37,473 nt of DNA from Candidatus Polarisedimenticolaceae bacterium (lineage in GTDB: Bacteria; Acidobacteriota; Polarisedimenticolia; Polarisedimenticolales; DASRJG01). Under the pieces are notes generated by a model, which worked only from the letters and a program-made list of their open reading frames with translations, was not told the DNA's origin and made no database searches. A program made the translations under genes and the position numbers. Every line of letters starts with the position of its first letter. Within the stretch, counting starts at the first letter, position 1. Below, one piece after another: positions 2,181 through 23,537 of the stretch. The stretch lies in assembly GCA_036376135.1 (NCBI GenBank), contig DASVAW010000114.1, forward strand, positions 1-37,473. Direction: 5' to 3'.

Positions 2181-2248
2181 CTCCCACCCCTGAGCCCCGA
2201 CGACTTGCCGCGCGGTCCGGCACCGCCGTGCGCCGGAGGACCGCCCGC

Positions 2249-5200
2249 ATGACCGCCGAGCGATTCCTGTCGCGCAGCCGTTCGATCGTGGACTTCGTGC
2301 AACGGGGCGCCGAGGCGCACCCCGATCGCTGCCTCTACCGCTTCCTGGACATCGACGGCGAGGAGCGCGACTCGTACACCTACCTCGGCTTTCACGAGCG
2401 GACGCGCCACCTGGCGGAGCACCTGTCGCAGTCCGGCCTGAGGCGCGGCGACCGGGTGATCCTGGTCTACCCCCCGGGGCTCGAGGTGATCGTCGCGTTC
2501 TTCGCCTGCGCGCGCATCGGCGTGATCGCCGTTCCCACCTACCCCCCGACGCCGATGAACTTCGAGACGGGCCTCGGGAAGCTCGCGTTCGTCGCGAAGG
2601 ACTGCGACGCGAAGGCCGCCCTGACGACCCGGGGATTCCTGCGCTCGTACCGGCTGCTGCTGGCCAAGCGCAAGCTCACCGCGCCCTGGCGGCGCGCCCC
2701 CGGCCTGCCGTCGCTCGAGTGGGTGACGACCGACGACGCGCGCGGCGTCGCCTCCGAGGGGTTCCGGGACGATCCCCACCCCACCCTGTTCCTCCAGTAC
2801 ACCTCCGGGTCGACGGCCGATCCCAAGGGGGTGATCGTCACGCACGAGAACGTGATCCACAACACGTTCGCCACCCTCGATCACGCGCCGACGCAGGTGT
2901 CGTGGCTCCCGCAGTACCACGACATGGGGCTCATCGGGTACTACCTCATGCCGGCGATCTCGGGGGGAACGACCTACGGCTTCTCCCCGCTGGACTTCCT
3001 CAAGCGACCCGCGTTGTGGCTCGAGACGATCTCGCGGGTGAAGGCGACGTACACGTCGTCGCCGAACTTCGGCTACGAGTATTGCCTGCGCGAGGACAAG
3101 CTCCCCGAGGCGGCGCTCGCGGGCCTGGACCTTGGCTCGCTGCGCGTGATGATGAACGCCGCGGAGCCCGTGCGCGCCGAGACCGTGGCGCGCTTCTTCG
3201 AGCGGTTCTCGCCGTACGGACTTCGCCCCGAGTCCCTCGTCGCCGCCTTCGGGCTCGCCGAGAACACCCTGTGCGTGTCGAACCACGGCCGGCACGTGGT
3301 GACGGTGAACAAGCGTCTCCTCCAGCAGCGCCGCCTCCACCTCGAGCCGGACCAGGCGCGCAACAACAACCAGAGCCGCATCGTCAGCTGCGGAAAACCC
3401 CTCGACGGCGTGCTCGTGCGGATCGTCGAGCCCGAGACGCGCGTCGCCCTGCGCGACGGGGAGATCGGCGAGATCTGGGTGGGCGGGCCGAGCCGGTGCT
3501 CCGGGTACTGGAACCGTCCCGAGCTCTCGCGGAAGGTGTTCGAGGGCGAGCTCGCCGTGGACGACGGCGAGCGTTACATGCGGACGGGCGACCTCGGCTT
3601 CGTCCACGAGGGCGAGCTTTACGTCTGCGGCCGGATCAAGGACCTCATCATCATCCGCGGGGTGAACTACTACCCCCAGGACATCGAGGGGATCGTCGAG
3701 GCGAGCTCGAGCGCGATCCGGACCGGCGGCGTGGCGGCGTTCGACGTCGAGGAGGAGGGCGAGGCCCTCGTGGTGATCGTGGAGGTGAGGTCTCCGAAGG
3801 ACCTCCCGGACGCGGCCGCGATCGCGCGCGCGATCCGCACGCAGTACTACATCGAGCCCCACACGATCGCCTTCGTGCCGCCGCGCACGATCGCGAAGAC
3901 GACCTCGGGGAAGATCGCGCGGGCGCGCACCCGCGAGAAGTGGCTGAACGGCGAGATCGAGCCGATCGCGCGGCACGTGAGCCTGCGCGAGCAGGAGCCC
4001 GCGGGGGACGTCTCGGGGCTGCGCGAGCGGTTCCAGTACATCGTGGAGCTGTACAACCTCACCGGCCGCGAGGAGTACTCCTTCGCCGAGATCGGCATCG
4101 ACTCCCTCACGATGGTGCGCCTCATCGAGGACATCAAGGGGCTGCTCGAGGAGCACGGCGCGGGCGAGCTCGTCCGGCACGTCGACGTGAAGCTCCTCCA
4201 GCGCCTGACGATCCAGGAGTTCTTCGCGCTGATCGATCAGTTCGAGAGATCCTCGGCGTCGCCGGTGGCGGCGCTGCGTTACGTCCTCCTCAAGGTCCAG
4301 CAGGAGCACGAGGAGTACGAGCGGGAGTGCATGCGGTCGGACGCCGCCCTCGAGCGGCTTCCGCGTCTCGAGATCGCGGAGCGCGACGCCCCGGTGACCG
4401 ACCTTCTGATGACGGGCGTCACGGGGTTCTTCGGCCCGTTCCTGCTCGAGAACCTCCTCCGGCAGACGCCGTACCGGATCCACGCCCTCGCGCGCGCGAA
4501 CGACCCGGTGCACGGGATGGACCGCATCCGCGCCGCGATCCGGCGGGCGAGACTGTGGACCCCCGCGCTCGAGGAGCGGCTCGAGCGCCGCGTGCACGTG
4601 GTGTGCGGCGACGTCTCCCGGCACAACCTCGGCCTGAAGTCCGACCAGTGGAAGTCGCTTTCCGCGAAGGTGCAGGCGGTCTGCCACAACGCCGCGCTCG
4701 TGAACTACGTCATGAGCTACGACGCGCTGCGCCCGCACAACGTGGACGGCACCCGCGAGGCGCTGCGCTTCGCCTCCTCCGGCGCCCGGAAGACGTTCCA
4801 CATGATCTCGAGCACCTTCATCTACGGCTGGACGGCCAAGGACGTCCTGTGGGAGACCGACGCGAATCCCGCGATGGAGAACCTCGACTTCGGCTACGCC
4901 CAGAGCAAGTGGGTCGCCGAGCAGCTCGTGCTCGCCGCGGAGAAGCAGGGTCTCGACGTGAGGATCTACCGCCCGTCCCTGATCTCGTCGTCGACCCACG
5001 GCGTGGGGAGCCGGGACGACATCGCCATCCGGCTGCTCGCCTTCATGATCCAGCACGGAGTAGCCGTGAGCTCCCGCAACCAGATCAGCTTCTCGCCCGC
5101 CGACGTCGCCGCGAACAACATCGTCGCGCTGATGCGGCTGCCGAAGGGCGAGGAGCGCACCTTCCACGTGACCGTGGACGACTACTACAACATGGCGGAC

Positions 5201-5527
5201 GTCACGCGCCGGATCACCCGCGACTACGGCTACACGTTCGCCTATTACGACATCGCGCGCTTCGTCGCCGAGATGACGCGGCGGAGCACGCGGGACGACC
5301 TGATCTATCCCCTGCTCGATTTCTTCAACCGCTCGCACGAGAAGCTCTCGGCGATGCAGCACAAGCGGTACAACAACGACGCCTACCGCAGGGCGCGCGC
5401 CAAGGCGCCCGACGCGCGCCCCGACCCGACGCTCGAGGAGACGGTCCGCTATCAGATGGAGTTCCTGCTCCGGGAGGGGATCATCCCGAAGCCGGACGCG
5501 ACGCGCAGGGAGAGCGACGCGGTCTAG
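2249..5527 (+). CDS. Fatty acyl-AMP ligase / acyl carrier / thioester reductase fusion
   Basis: This 1092-residue enzyme has three domains. The first is an adenylation domain of the FAAL type (about 10-580), with YTSGSTADPKG at 184-194 and the HDMG motif at 224-227 followed by LIGYYLMPAISGGTTYGFSP, typical of acyl-AMP ligases that load acyl chains onto carrier proteins. The second is an acyl carrier domain with GIDSL, the phosphopantetheine serine being S619. The third is an NAD(P)-dependent thioester reductase with TGVTGFFG from residue 722 and the catalytic Y883/K887 in YAQSK. This order resembles carboxylic acid reductases but with a FAAL in place of their usual adenylation domain. The likely reaction is activation of a fatty acid and reductive release as aldehyde or alcohol. 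I chose the ATG at 2249 over the GTG at 2228 because GGAGGA lies 8 nt upstream. The neighbouring SDRs and PAP2 protein suggest a lipid pathway. Confidence 0.88.
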   Translation: MTAERFLSRSRSIVDFVQRGAEAHPDRCLYRFLDIDGEERDSYTYLGFHERTRHLAEHLSQSGLRRGDRVILVYPPGLEVIVAFFACARIGVIAVPTYPPTPMNFETGLGKLAFVAKDCDAKAALTTRGFLRSYRLLLAKRKLTAPWRRAPGLPSLEWVTTDDARGVASEGFRDDPHPTLFLQYTSGSTADPKGVIVTHENVIHNTFATLDHAPTQVSWLPQYHDMGLIGYYLMPAISGGTTYGFSPLDFLKRPALWLETISRVKATYTSSPNFGYEYCLREDKLPEAALAGLDLGSLRVMMNAAEPVRAETVARFFERFSPYGLRPESLVAAFGLAENTLCVSNHGRHVVTVNKRLLQQRRLHLEPDQARNNNQSRIVSCGKPLDGVLVRIVEPETRVALRDGEIGEIWVGGPSRCSGYWNRPELSRKVFEGELAVDDGERYMRTGDLGFVHEGELYVCGRIKDLIIIRGVNYYPQDIEGIVEASSSAIRTGGVAAFDVEEEGEALVVIVEVRSPKDLPDAAAIARAIRTQYYIEPHTIAFVPPRTIAKTTSGKIARARTREKWLNGEIEPIARHVSLREQEPAGDVSGLRERFQYIVELYNLTGREEYSFAEIGIDSLTMVRLIEDIKGLLEEHGAGELVRHVDVKLLQRLTIQEFFALIDQFERSSASPVAALRYVLLKVQQEHEEYERECMRSDAALERLPRLEIAERDAPVTDLLMTGVTGFFGPFLLENLLRQTPYRIHALARANDPVHGMDRIRAAIRRARLWTPALEERLERRVHVVCGDVSRHNLGLKSDQWKSLSAKVQAVCHNAALVNYVMSYDALRPHNVDGTREALRFASSGARKTFHMISSTFIYGWTAKDVLWETDANPAMENLDFGYAQSKWVAEQLVLAAEKQGLDVRIYRPSLISSSTHGVGSRDDIAIRLLAFMIQHGVAVSSRNQISFSPADVAANNIVALMRLPKGEERTFHVTVDDYYNMADVTRRITRDYGYTFAYYDIARFVAEMTRRSTRDDLIYPLLDFFNRSHEKLSAMQHKRYNNDAYRRARAKAPDARPDPTLEETVRYQMEFLLREGIIPKPDATRRESDAV

Positions 5528-18230: not shown

Positions 18231-20837
18231 GTGAACCCCCTCGTCCTCGCCCTCCTCCTGTCCGGCGCCGCCGCCCTCGTCCTCGAAGGGGTCTGGGCGC
18301 GCTGGCTGAGCTTCTCCCTCGGCGCCGGCGCCTACGCGACGACCGCCGTCCTCGCGACGTTCATGGCGGGGCTCGGCCTGGGCGCCCTCGCCGGGGGGCG
18401 CTTCGCCGCACGCCGATCAGCCGCCGCGAGCCTGCGCGCCTTCGCCGGGATCGAGCTCGCGAATGCCGCCTGGGCCCTGGCGTCGATCGCGTGGCTTCCC
18501 GGCGCGTTCCCCGAATCGGCGGTCGCGCTGGCGCGAGCCCTGGGGAGCGACGGCCTCCCTCCGCTCGCGCGATTCGCGCTCGCGTGCGCGGCGCTGTCCG
18601 TGCCGACCTTCCTGATGGGGATGACGCTCCCGCTCGCCGTCCGGGCCGCGGTCGAGGGGGCCGGGGACCGGGGGCGGCGCGCGGGGATCCTCTACGCCGC
18701 GAACACGCTGGGCGGAGCGGTCGGGGCCGGGCTTGGCGCCACGCTCCTCGTCGACCGGGTGGGGTTGTCGGGAGCCGTCGGCGCGGCGGCGGCGCTGCAG
18801 GCGATCACGGGGCTCGTCGCCGCGGCGCTTTCCCGTCGCGCGCCGTCGAACGCGCCGGGGCCGGAGCCGGACGCGCGCGCGGCGCGACCGGGACTCGCCG
18901 CCGCGGCGTTCGCGGCGAGCGGGTTCGCCGGACTCGCCTTGGAGGTCGGGGCGCAGCGGATCCTGTCGCTGCAGCTGGGCTCCACGGTGCACGCGTTCGC
19001 GACGATCCTCGCGGCGCTCCTCGCCGGGATCGGGATCGGAGGCGCGCTCGGCGCAGGCGCCACGCGGCGGACGAGCCCGGAGGCCGCGCTCGCCGTCGCG
19101 CTCGCCGCGCTCGGGGTCGGCGCCGGATGGGCGATCCTGGCCCTCGACCTCGGGACGTCCGGCGCGGGCTTCGTCCTGCTCCCCGCGGGGATCGCGCTCG
19201 GCGCGGTCGCGGGGATCGTCGGCCGCATGGCGGGGAGCTCACCCGGGACGATTCCCCGGCGCTTCGCGGGCGCGTACGCGGCGAACGCCGCCGCCTCCGC
19301 CGCGGGAGCGCTCGTCGCCGGGCTCGTGCTCGTCCCCGCGTTCGGCGCGACGGGCACGCTGCGGATCGCCGGCGCGATCGCCTTCTCCGCGTGCGCCCTC
19401 GTCCTCGTCGTCGCCGTGCCCGCACGAACGCTCCGGCTGGTGTGCGCGACCCTCGCGGTCGTCGCGATCGCGCTCGCGGCCGATCGCGAGCCGGTGCGGC
19501 GCACCTACGAGCGGTGGTTCGGCGCGTCGCGCCTCGTCGCGCTGCGCGAAGGGCCGGTGCAGGCGGTGGCGGTCACGGCGGAGAGCAACGACCAGCACCT
19601 CGACTATCGCCGGCTCGTCGCGCACCGGACGAGCCTTGCCGCCACCCACCTCGCCTCCCAGCGCTACATGCGCCTGCTGGGCCACCTGCCGACGATGCTC
19701 GCCGAAGGACCGAGGCGGGCCCTCGTGATCTGCCTGGGCACCGGAACCACGCTCGCCGCCGTCACCCGTCATCCCGAGCTCGAGCGCATCGACGTCGCGG
19801 AGATCTCCCCCGAGGTCGTCGATCTCGTGGGCGCGGTCCACCCCGACGGCGAGGCCGCGCTCGCCGACCCCCGCGTTCGCGTCCACGTCGAGGACGGTCG
19901 CCACGTCCTGCTCTCGGCGTCGGACCCGTGGGACGTGATCACCCTCGAGCCCCCGCCGCCGGGCGACGCGGGGGTGGTGTCGCTGTACACCGAGGAGTTC
20001 TATGCGCTCTGCCGCAGGCGGCTGTCGCCGGGAGGGGTGACCGCGCAGTGGATCCCCCTTCAGTCGGCTTCGCTCGACGACGTCCGGATGCTCGTCGGCG
20101 CCTTCGCACGCTCCTTCCCGCACGCCGTCGCCTTTCTTCCCCTCGAGCGCGACCTCGTCCTCCTGGGATCCGAGCGTCCGCTGGCCCGCTCCGCGGCGCG
20201 CTGGCGGGACGCCTTCGCGGCGCCGGGACCGGCGGCCTCGATGCGCGAGGTCGGCTTCGACTCTCCCGAGACGCTCCTGGCGAACGCGATCGCCGACCGC
20301 GAGGCGCTCCTGCGGTTCTCGCAGTCCGCCCCGGCGCTCACCGACGACCGGCCCCGCGTCGAGCGAAGGACCGCCGAGCGCCTCTCCGCCCTCCCCGACG
20401 TCCGCGAATTACGCCTCGCCCCTTCCCCGGCGCCCGGGCTGGTCCCGGACGGCGATGCGCACAGTGCGGCGAGGATCCTCGAGGCCCGGCGGGCGCTCGA
20501 CGTGCTGCGTGAGGCCGAGGACGCCCGCGAGCGCGGCGGGACACGGGCCGCGTCCGCGCTTCGCGAGGCCGCGTGGCGCGCCCGACCCTCGGACGCCTAT
20601 TTCCTCTGGGCGGCGCGGCTCAGCGATGCGCACCTCACGCGATTCGTCGCCGACGCGAGCCGGCGCGGCGACGATCCGCGCGCGTGGGCCTCGGTCGGCG
20701 AGAAGCTGCTCCTTCGCGGCGACTCGGCGGCGGCGCGCGCGGCCTTCTCCCGCGCGCTGCGCACCCTCCCCGCCAGGGACCCCGCGGCGGTGTCGATTCG
20801 CGCGTGGCTCGCGTCGACGGGCCCCGGACCGGTTTAG
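18231..20837 (+). CDS. Membrane protein fused to a spermidine synthase-like domain
   Basis: This 868-residue protein has two sets of hydrophobic helices (about 1-200 and 220-420), then a SAM-binding methyltransferase-like domain with CLGTGTTLAAV from 501, VAEISPEV at about 522-529 and VEDGRHVL at 553-560. The last 130 residues are helical and tetratricopeptide-like. Such membrane/polyamine synthase fusions are widespread in deltaproteobacteria, Acidobacteria and Planctomycetes. The catalytic aspartates of real spermidine synthases are not clear here: the usual D-DP region reads ITLEPPPPG. Polyamine synthesis is therefore doubtful and the substrate unknown. The GTG start lacks a good ribosome site. 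Its TAG overlaps the TAA of the convergent thioredoxin-like gene. Confidence 0.78.
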   Translation: MNPLVLALLLSGAAALVLEGVWARWLSFSLGAGAYATTAVLATFMAGLGLGALAGGRFAARRSAAASLRAFAGIELANAAWALASIAWLPGAFPESAVALARALGSDGLPPLARFALACAALSVPTFLMGMTLPLAVRAAVEGAGDRGRRAGILYAANTLGGAVGAGLGATLLVDRVGLSGAVGAAAALQAITGLVAAALSRRAPSNAPGPEPDARAARPGLAAAAFAASGFAGLALEVGAQRILSLQLGSTVHAFATILAALLAGIGIGGALGAGATRRTSPEAALAVALAALGVGAGWAILALDLGTSGAGFVLLPAGIALGAVAGIVGRMAGSSPGTIPRRFAGAYAANAAASAAGALVAGLVLVPAFGATGTLRIAGAIAFSACALVLVVAVPARTLRLVCATLAVVAIALAADREPVRRTYERWFGASRLVALREGPVQAVAVTAESNDQHLDYRRLVAHRTSLAATHLASQRYMRLLGHLPTMLAEGPRRALVICLGTGTTLAAVTRHPELERIDVAEISPEVVDLVGAVHPDGEAALADPRVRVHVEDGRHVLLSASDPWDVITLEPPPPGDAGVVSLYTEEFYALCRRRLSPGGVTAQWIPLQSASLDDVRMLVGAFARSFPHAVAFLPLERDLVLLGSERPLARSAARWRDAFAAPGPAASMREVGFDSPETLLANAIADREALLRFSQSAPALTDDRPRVERRTAERLSALPDVRELRLAPSPAPGLVPDGDAHSAARILEARRALDVLREAEDARERGGTRAASALREAAWRARPSDAYFLWAARLSDAHLTRFVADASRRGDDPRAWASVGEKLLLRGDSAAARAAFSRALRTLPARDPAAVSIRAWLASTGPGPV

Positions 20838-22651
20838 CGATCCGTGAGGCCGAGCGGGGCGAGCGCCTCGCGCACCTTCTCGTGGAGGTCCGGGGGCGCT
20901 CCGTAGAAGACCGCGCGGGCCTTCCCCTCGCCGTCGAAGAGGAACAGCGTCGGGACCGCGAGGAGGTTGCCGAACTTCATCGCGATCTCCGGGGTACCGA
21001 TCGCGACGGGAAGCCCGGCCGCGACCTTCGACGCGAGCTCGCGTACGTCCTTCTCCTCCGACTCGACCGCGAAGGTGACGACCGCCAGGCGGTCGCCGTG
21101 CCGTCGCTTGAGCTCCGAGAGGTACCCGAGGGTCGTCCGGCACGGCGGACACCACGTCGCCCAGAACTCGACGAGCACGGGACGCCCGGCGAGCGTGGTC
21201 CGATCGATCGGGCGCCCGTCGAGGTCGACCGCCGAGAACTCGGGGAGCGCCTCGAGCCGGGCGTCGGGGGTCGCGGCGGGCGCTCCCCCCGGCTCGCCGG
21301 CGAGCACCCGTCCCAGAAGCGCGGTGAGATCGGCGCGGAACCTCTCGTGGTTCGCGGGATCCCGCCACGGGGTGTACCTGCCGGACTTCGCGTCGCCGAA
21401 ATACCCGAGGTCCTGCGGGCCCGCGAACAACGACTCGTTCACGAACACCGCGGGGTAGCGGCGGACGCCCAGCCGGTCGGCGATCGCCGAGGCGCCCCAG
21501 TTCTCGACGACGTACCGGACCCTTCCCCCGAGCCCGTCCACGACCTGACGCACCAGCAAACTTGCCGGGTCGGAGAGATTTCAGGTGTACGGCCAACGGA
21601 CGAGGGTGACGGTCGCCTCCGCGCCCGCGAGGGGTTGTGGGCGGGACACGGAGGCGGCCGCGGCGGCGTCGGGGCCGACCCGCCGAACGTATTCGGGAAG
21701 CACGTCGTCGAGGATCGCCGCGGCGTTCGCGTGCGCCTCCGGCGACGAGGCGGCATCGTCGAGCATCGCCTCGGCCTTCTCGAGGAACAGGCGCGCGAGG
21801 CTGGAGTCGGCCGGCGTCGCGTCGAGGCGCGTGCGCCAGACGGCCGCCGACTCGCGCAGCGCCGTGGGCTCGGGCGCCGCGACCCCCGCGCGCAGGATCG
21901 GAGCGCCCAGCAGGCGCGCCCGCAGGATCTCGTACAGCGCCCCCTCGAGGCTCCCGGCGGCGAGCAGGTCGCGGGCCGTCTTGAGCGCCGCGGAGGCCGA
22001 GATGAACTCCCGGTGGCGATCCTTCGAGACCGGAGGGACGTAGGCGCGGACCAGCTCGCGCTCGAGGTCGTCGACGACTCCCTGGAGGGGAGCGATGCGC
22101 GGCGCGGGACCCGGCGGCCGGAACTGCAACGCGGCGTCGAACGCCGCGGCACGGGCGAGGGCGACCGCGCTGCCGACGTAGAAGACGCCGCCGAAGTAGT
22201 CGCCGTTCTCGCGCCACATCGGGGCGGTTCTCGCGTAGATCGGCGACTGCACCCGTGCGTCGTCCCGAAGCGCCCGCACCGCCGCCGGAAGGGCCGCCGA
22301 CGACGCGGCCTCGAGCTCGGCGCGACCGCGCTCGAGCTCCGCCCGCGCCTCGGCAAGCGCCCGGTCGAAGATCTCCGGGGTGACCTTGTCTGGCGACGGG
22401 GCCTTCGCGGAGACGAACCGCAGCGGGTCGAGCAACGTGCGCGCGAGGGTGAGCCGCTCGAGGGCGAGGAGGTCCCGCCCGACGGCGTGGGCCGACTCGG
22501 CCTTGGCCAGAAGCGCCATGCCGCTCTCCCACTCCCCCTTCACCGCCTCCATCGCGGGAGGGTCCCCCGCGCGCTGGGCGGCGATCGCCGCGCCGATCGC
22601 CTCGCCCGCCGGTGCCGCGAGGACGATCGGGAGGAGGAGATGGACGACCAT
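20834..22651 (-). CDS. Putative selenoprotein: helical domain, UxxS thioredoxin-like fold and TlpA-like CPPC domain
   Basis: Read through the TGA at 21583-21581, this is a 605-residue exported protein. Conventional gene calling would give two pieces: 21581-22651 and 20834-21559 (TTG start). Residues 1-18 are a signal peptide, about 20-340 are helical, and strand VTLVRWPYT ends at 356. The TGA is codon 357. It is followed by NLS, a helix (DPASLLVRQVVDGLGG), strand VRYVVENWG, and GVRRYPAVFVN with a cis-proline. This is a thioredoxin fold whose active-site position is the TGA, giving UxxS. From about 455 a TlpA-like domain carries WCPPC. The second piece alone has no ribosome site and would lose strand 1. 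A bacterial SECIS-like hairpin follows the TGA. Whether the genome has the selenocysteine machinery is not visible here; a nonsense mutation is the alternative. Confidence 0.7.
21553..21583 (-). promoter_or_regulatory. In-frame UGA with a bacterial SECIS-like hairpin
   Basis: Numbering from the U of UGA as 1, CCGGCA at 16-21 pairs with UGCUGG at 26-31 (one G-U pair) around the tetraloop AGUU. The loop begins 18 nt after the UGA and has a G at its second position. This meets the known bacterial SECIS rule: a hairpin just downstream of the UGA with a G among the first two loop bases, 16-37 nt away. A larger alternative, GACC (13-16) with GGUC (39-42), would expose GGU in its loop. The sequence also encodes the helix after the active site. 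Confidence 0.6.
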
Positions 22652-22690
22652 GCGGGCACGGTGCCGGGCCCCGTCCTCCGGATCAACCCG

Positions 22691-22708
22691 GACGCCGCGG
22701 GCGGCGTC
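22691..22708. repeat. Inverted repeat with 8-bp arms (GACGCCGC / GCGGCGTC)
   Basis: Perfect 8-bp arms flank GG in the 145-bp region between the divergent putative selenoprotein and mddA genes. It could be a dimeric operator. It is also GC-rich enough to arise by chance. Confidence 0.4.
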
Positions 22709-22796
22709 CTCCCTGCAGCCAACCCCCGGCCGACCTCGTGGCGGGATCGCTTCCGTTCTCCGTAGTAGCGGATCGAGGACCATGAAGGAGGCCCCC

Positions 22797-23537
22797 ATGC
22801 TCAAGAGGATCTCGTTCTTCATCTACGGCACGATCGCCTACGCGATCTTCTTCGGCACGTTCCTGTACGCGTGCGGCTGGGTGGGCGGTTTCCTGACCCC
22901 CACCCGCCTCGACGGTCCCGCGACCGAGCCCCTCGGCAAGGCGCTCGCGATCGACCTGGCCCTGCTCGCGCTCTTCGCGGTGCAGCACAGCGTCATGGCC
23001 CGGAAGGGGTTCAAGACGTGGTGGACCCGCTTCGTGCCCCAGGCGATCGAGCGGTCGACCTACACGCTGTTCTCCAGCCTCGCCCTGATCCTGATGTTCT
23101 GGCAGTGGCGGCCGCTGGGCGGCGTGATCTGGAACGTCGAGGCGACCGCGGGCCGTGCGGCCCTCTACGGCCTCTTCGCGTTCGGGTGGGGGCTCGTGCT
23201 GCTCTCGACCTTCCTGATCCACCACTTCGACCTGTTCGGGCTGCGCCAGGTGTGGCTGTTCCTCCTCGGCCGCCCGTACCAGCCGCTCCGCTTCGCGACC
23301 CCGGGGCCGTACCGGATGGTCCGGCACCCGCTGTACCTCGGGTGGTTGTTCGCCTTCTGGATGACCCCGACGATGACCGCGGCCCACCTCGTCTTCGCGA
23401 TCGCGACGACGGCGTACATCCTCCTCGCGATCCGCTTCGAGGAGCGGGACCTCGTCCACGAACACGGGGCGCTCTACGAGGAGTACCGCCGCCGCGTGCC
23501 CATGATCGTGCCGGCGTTCCGGCAGGCGGAGCGCTGA
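22797..23537 (+). CDS. mddA: Methanethiol S-methyltransferase (MddA-like)
   Basis: This is a 246-residue membrane protein with about five helices. It closely follows the MddA pattern: MLKRISFFIYGTIAYAIFF at the start, LLALFAVQHSVMARKGFKTW, FSSLALILMFWQWRPLGGV, TFLIHHFDLFGLRQVWL, the PGPYRMVRHPLYLGWLFAFW SAM-site segment, and FEERDLVHEHGALYEEYRRR. MddA methylates methanethiol to dimethyl sulfide using S-adenosylmethionine and belongs to the isoprenylcysteine methyltransferase (NnrU-like) superfamily. AAGGAGG lies 5 nt before the ATG at 22797. It is divergent from the putative selenoprotein and precedes a DUF4395 gene by 2 bp. The function is inferred from similarity recalled by eye, so other volatile thiols are possible substrates. 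Confidence 0.82.
   Translation: MLKRISFFIYGTIAYAIFFGTFLYACGWVGGFLTPTRLDGPATEPLGKALAIDLALLALFAVQHSVMARKGFKTWWTRFVPQAIERSTYTLFSSLALILMFWQWRPLGGVIWNVEATAGRAALYGLFAFGWGLVLLSTFLIHHFDLFGLRQVWLFLLGRPYQPLRFATPGPYRMVRHPLYLGWLFAFWMTPTMTAAHLVFAIATTAYILLAIRFEERDLVHEHGALYEEYRRRVPMIVPAFRQAER

Follow-up and report, generated by a model that had tools for sequence, protein, structure and literature searches.

A candidate selenoprotein family in Acidobacteriota and other phyla, combining a UxxS thioredoxin-like domain with a CPPC TlpA-like domain and a helical module

Selenocysteine (Sec) at the active-site turn of a thioredoxin-type fold is found in selenoprotein thioredoxins (UxxC form) and SelW-like selenoproteins, and annotation often cuts selenoprotein genes in two. 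A 2026 review tabulates 119 families and subfamilies of prokaryotic selenoproteins (PMC13188914); its Table 1 includes a peroxiredoxin-like selenoprotein, cd02970, which likewise has a UxxS motif in a thioredoxin fold. A TlpA/ResA-like domain is also part of the UGC-containing TlpA family selenoprotein, or ResA-like WAxxUGC protein (NF041054), in which, going by its name, Sec sits in the TlpA-type active site. Beyond selenoproteins, the ResA, TlpA and DsbE (CcmG) oxidoreductases have this same domain fold with a CxxC in the same position. Here we describe a gene from a Candidatus Polarisedimenticolaceae bacterium, located in a stretch of 37,473 nucleotides (contig DASVAW010000114.1, positions 1 to 37,473, hereafter the window), which shares single features with each of these systems and matches none of them as a whole.

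Thioredoxin and SelW selenoproteins are of the UxxC or CxxU type, whereas the window's family has UxxS, and its sequence likeness to them is near noise (PDB matches at E 0.02-1). The Sec domain differs from cd02970 in its motif (WPYTUNLSDP), in the architecture around it and in matching neither the AhpC/TSA nor the Redoxin model of Pfam. Scored against NF041054 the family reaches 30 of 300 bits, far under the cut-off; unlike what that name implies, the window's protein has an ordinary CPPC in its TlpA-like domain and carries Sec in a separate domain. ResA, TlpA and DsbE have neither the Sec domain nor the helical module. When compared by descriptions of motif and architecture, no entry in the table of the review combines a helical module with a UxxS domain and a TlpA domain of the CPPC type (PMC13188914), and a text search of papers for WPYTU or WPYTC returned none. 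This agrees with a preliminary description of the locus, made from the sequence, according to which such an architecture is not known among described selenoprotein families. By motif and architecture the family thus appears to be absent from the 2026 catalogue, although a prior mention elsewhere is possible.

On the minus strand of the window, a first-start rule yields two open frames, 21581-22822 and 20834-21559, that belong to one common reading frame. Read from the ATG at 22651, this frame comprises 605 codons with a single TGA, flanked by the residues TLVRWPYT-U-NLSDPASLL, and continues for another 248 codons to a TAA terminator at 20834-20836; the YP and WCPPC motifs fall at residues 399-400 and 500-504 (Table 1). 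The arrangement of two same-frame pieces around one TGA, as first described, was thus borne out. Besides the ATG at 22651, several in-frame starts exist further upstream; the former gives a signal-peptide-like N-terminus, and the N-termini of homologues likewise resemble Sec, lipobox or Tat signals. At its 3' end the gene overlaps by four bases the end of a plus-strand gene for a fused MFS/spermidine-synthase-like protein (18231-20837).

Table 1. Features of the selenoprotein gene, with positions in the window and the evidence for each
Feature	Position	Strand	Evidence
Complete gene of the selenoprotein (605 aa, counting TGA as Sec)	20834..22651	-	Frame and TGA conserved, 41 distinct genomes
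Probable signal peptide MVVHLLLPIVLAAPAGEA, start codon uncertain	22598..22651	-	By eye
All-helical N-terminal module, residues 15-332	21656..22609	-	AlphaFold helices, pLDDT mostly >85
Sec-containing thioredoxin-fold domain, residues 344-450 (LVRWPYTUNLSDPA)	21302..21622	-	AlphaFold, structure matches
TGA within the frame at codon 357, taken to encode Sec	21583-21581	-	TGA in 40 genomes, TGC in one
Bacterial SECIS hairpin CCGGCAAGTTTGCTGG, RNA level	21553..21568	-	Published bSECIS model; E. coli fdhF core
Pro400, cis-proline position of the Sec domain (by position, not geometry), invariant	21452..21454	-	Alignment
ResA/TlpA-like thioredoxin domain, residues 467-603	20843..21253	-	Pfam Redoxin, AhpC-TSA, Thioredoxin
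CPPC redox motif, residues 501-504	21140..21151	-	Both Cys invariant, 37/37 aligned members

When 60 related genomes were searched with the read-through translation, seven full relatives were obtained, each with one TGA in the same aligned column; a scan of named genome contigs, with peptide patterns of which the TGA codon was no part, gave 32 strong relatives. The latter come from several classes of Acidobacteriota, from Planctomycetota, from one member of Armatimonadota and from one record filed under Eisenbacteria, which is truncated and does not include the start of the Sec domain. Within the phylum of the window's genome, the Sec domain was detected in 15/396 sampled genomes, each time with one TGA. 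After removal of duplicates the family comprises 41 distinct genomes, mostly Acidobacteriota, in which the codon at the aligned column is TGA in 40, TGC (Cys) in one, and no other. None of the relatives ends naturally at the position of the TGA. The Cys form belongs to Armatimonadetes SZAS-5 (L091:6031) and represents an exchange between Sec and Cys that occurred in nature, in a gene that does not have the hairpin described below; its placement in the tree is unsure, so that the exchange could have gone in either direction. This genome also has selA and tRNA-Sec, and therefore loss of the Sec system does not explain its Cys. More distant Armatimonadota matches (L163-L166) were rejected as small thioredoxin- or glutaredoxin-like proteins outside the family, and a plasmid search with the Sec domain returned zero matches.

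The AlphaFold model of the selenoprotein, computed with 37 sequences, has a pLDDT of 89.6. Residues 346-450 adopt a thioredoxin-type fold in it; residue 357 comes after strand beta1 (346-352) and ahead of the first helix (360-372), and Tyr399-Pro400 precedes the next strand of the Sec domain. The initial proposals that the TGA occupies the place of the active cysteine in a UxxS motif, and that the segment RRYPAVFVN holds the cis-proline, are both in line with this model and with the invariance of Pro400. Folded alone, the Sec domain has a pLDDT of 87.3 and matches thioredoxins best (Z up to 9.7), followed by SelW-type folds, the scores being modest; Foldseek matches of the isolated domain are weak (best E 1.6e-3). 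Neither Pfam nor NCBIfam release 20.0 (the NCBIfam scan covering 37 members) has a model that covers the Sec domain of the window's protein; DUF1525 gave a weak match to the domain (E 0.007) in 2/8 members. In scans of the window's protein with both libraries only the C-terminal domain was matched, with 49.1 bits for PF08534 against a cut-off of 26.6; together with structural matches to ResA and DsbE at Z 18-20, this upholds its earlier assignment as a WCPPC TlpA-like domain. The only invariant residues capable of redox chemistry across the 37 members are U357, C501 and C504.

Downstream of the TGA, nucleotide conservation is far above what the protein would need. Starting 15 bases past the first base of the TGA, all 40/40 TGA genes (39 compared, plus L077) carry the sequence CC[A/G]GCA-(GGTC or AGTT)-TGCTG. 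The alanine codon within it is GCA in 39/39 genes tested, in which GCA makes up 2-23% of all Ala codons, and for proline only CCA and CCG are used, both of which preserve the pairing with U. Wherever Gly (GGT) stands instead of Ser (AGT), the next Leu codon is CTG rather than TTG; the loop bases switch in pairs, A-U in 22 genes and G-C in 15, with zero exceptions. These changes amount to about three switches on the tree and concern one pair, too few for a sign test, and on the sequences compared the frozen silent sites are stronger evidence for a SECIS than this covariation. The published bSECIS model describes a stem-loop 16-37 nt after the UGA with a small loop, G in the first two positions, an upper stem of 4-16 bp and a minimum free energy (MFE) at or below -7.5 (PMC13188914). 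The family's hairpin agrees with it, having a 6-bp stem and a 4-nt loop at a distance of 18 nt, with G in one of the first two loop positions, the MFE of the 42-nt region being -9.4 to -12.4 kcal/mol in four members. For single sequences the fold energies are mostly unremarkable when compared with shuffled sequence, and the case for a SECIS rests on conservation.

In its GGTC form the hairpin is identical to the E. coli fdhF SECIS over GCAGGTCTGC, and the fdhF stem-loop core GCAGGUCUGC is that same form; fdhF is, however, a different gene, and the window's own copy carries AGTT in its loop instead. In the Cys homologue the corresponding site reads CCCGCGAGCCTGCTTG, which retains the protein motif and has lost the hairpin. 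A second match to a SECIS-like pattern in the window's genome (G000:C59) was set aside, as no TGA-interrupted gene is recognisable there, and an Rfam scan of the whole window gave nothing at gathering thresholds. The call of a probable selenoprotein in the preliminary description is thus supported; it missed the hairpin, the breadth of the family and the role of the helical module as a partner, discussed below.

The machinery for Sec insertion, which that description had recommended looking for, is present in the window's genome (G000; 97.6% complete, draft in 179 contigs), with selA (507 bits), selB (310.5), tRNA-Sec (71.9) and selD (370) all above cut-offs. Its selD gene (L060:1369-2307, G000:C135) has an in-frame TGA of its own, within SYASCAGU, and is probably itself a selenoprotein gene. 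Across the named genomes with the gene, selA was found in 30/32. One of the two others has tRNA-Sec, while the second (G074) has neither above the cut-off; the latter is a draft genome whose TGA gene (L079:6028) has an intact hairpin, and the missing selA and tRNA-Sec may reflect a draft gap.

An N-terminal helical domain had also been predicted from the sequence, and in the AlphaFold model this part of the protein is indeed helical throughout. Pfam gave no match on the window's module, including TPR or any other named repeat. In short-form lineages (e.g. L007, L008, L079, L080, L082) the redox protein starts with a signal peptide of its own, and a separate gene immediately upstream encodes the helical module. 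Separate phylum-wide searches with the Sec domain and with the helical module retrieved an identical set of 15 genomes out of about 390, the module being fused to the Sec protein in ten of these and adjacent in five. We conclude that, within the sampled genomes of the phylum, the Sec protein has a dedicated partner in the helical module. Residue 172 of the module (about 22136-22138, minus strand) is Cys in 19/30 members and Asp in the window's protein. Apart from the split helical module, no conserved neighbour gene was seen across the named loci. In the window, the divergent neighbour (about 22800-23537, plus strand) encodes the methanethiol S-methyltransferase MddA (NF045656, 338 bits against a cut-off of 270), which was not seen to be conserved beside the selenoprotein gene at other loci, and an AMP-binding plus thioester-reductase-type protein is encoded at 2228-5527 on the plus strand.

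We put the probability that the gene encodes a selenoprotein of an unlisted family acting as an envelope thiol oxidoreductase at roughly 85%, the internal relay considered below not included; that UGA codon 357 specifies Sec appears, from the sequence data, nearly certain. Were the TGA a true stop, the locus would hold two genes side by side, or encode a helical protein and, after it, a redox protein with a start of its own. The only point in favour of this is the stop codon, apart from the helical module being a separate gene in a minority of genomes; there, however, the break comes ahead of the redox protein's signal peptide and does not fall at the TGA. Further to that, the Cys homologue is read as one uninterrupted protein, and a stop would divide strand 1 from helix 1 of a single fold, so that the downstream piece would lose its first strand, as had been anticipated. 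The absence of a ribosome site for that piece likewise held up: within the first 90 codons past the TGA the window's gene has no in-frame ATG, only TTG and GTG codons that lack a clear Shine-Dalgarno sequence; the earliest of these codons lies within the RNA stem-loop. Given also the extra constraint on silent sites just past the TGA, we consider a true stop highly improbable. An assembly error or pseudogene could be suspected in a draft genome of this kind, but 40 distinct genomes from several phyla share this TGA, the frame is open on either side of it and the protein sequence is conserved, and this explanation is therefore already refuted, in accord with the original argument that the long open frame past the TGA does not look like a decayed gene.

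Insertion of a different residue, whether by general UGA reassignment or by leaky readthrough, is conceivable in principle, as near-cognate tRNAs can read through UGA. We hold it to be very unlikely here, because many long ORFs of the window stop at TGA, TGA is the terminator in 21/45 homologue ORFs, a SECIS is present along with the Sec genes, and in the sole homologue without the TGA the residue is Cys, which usually takes the place of Sec. The main rival to a relay between the two redox domains accepts the selenoprotein and changes its cycle: Sec would act as a peroxidase or isomerase resolved by an outside thiol, while the CPPC domain serves other substrates. In its favour are the UxxS motif without a local resolving residue, the likeness of the Sec domain to SelW-type folds as well, and the fact that thioredoxin-fold Sec enzymes include peroxidases. 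On the other hand, the Sec and CPPC domains occur together in every aligned member, whether of the long or the short form, which favours a shared cycle; we put a cycle with an outside thiol at somewhat worse than even odds.

In the reading that we prefer, SelB and Sec-tRNA would decode UGA 357 as selenocysteine, guided by the downstream hairpin, and Sec would take the N-terminal catalytic position of the thioredoxin-fold UxxS motif. The encoded protein is likely an exported thiol oxidoreductase, export being suggested by signals identified by eye. As Ser replaces the second Cys of the motif, the Sec domain has no resolving Cys and cannot form a local selenenylsulfide. Sec may attack an oxidised substrate (a disulfide, mixed disulfide or peroxide), after which the oxidised Sec could be reduced by the CPPC of the fused TlpA/ResA-like domain, itself recharged by an envelope thiol-reducing system of the DsbD/CcdA type. 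For this intramolecular relay, suggested by the architecture, we see an even chance. The helical module would act as the dedicated partner, perhaps in substrate binding or positioning.

The broader proposal, of a separate selenium-dependent redox system of the envelope in which a Sec-thioredoxin works only together with a helical partner dedicated to it and a TlpA reductase built into the protein, and persists almost solely in the Sec form, could equally well hold or fail. If it is true, homology pipelines that demand a Cys relative would miss such a family, with its ratio of 40 Sec to 1 Cys. According to its authors, deep-Sep may misidentify selenoproteins without Cys-containing homologues (PMC12013277); the ratio seen here fits that blind spot, and more such families may therefore exist. 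That both fused and split forms exist suggests a redox machine of three parts, based on selenium, in bacteria common in soil and sediment. Its selenoprotein gene is present in 15/396 genomes sampled from the phylum and also outside that phylum, yet appears to be missing from the 2026 catalogue, and its substrate can now be searched for.
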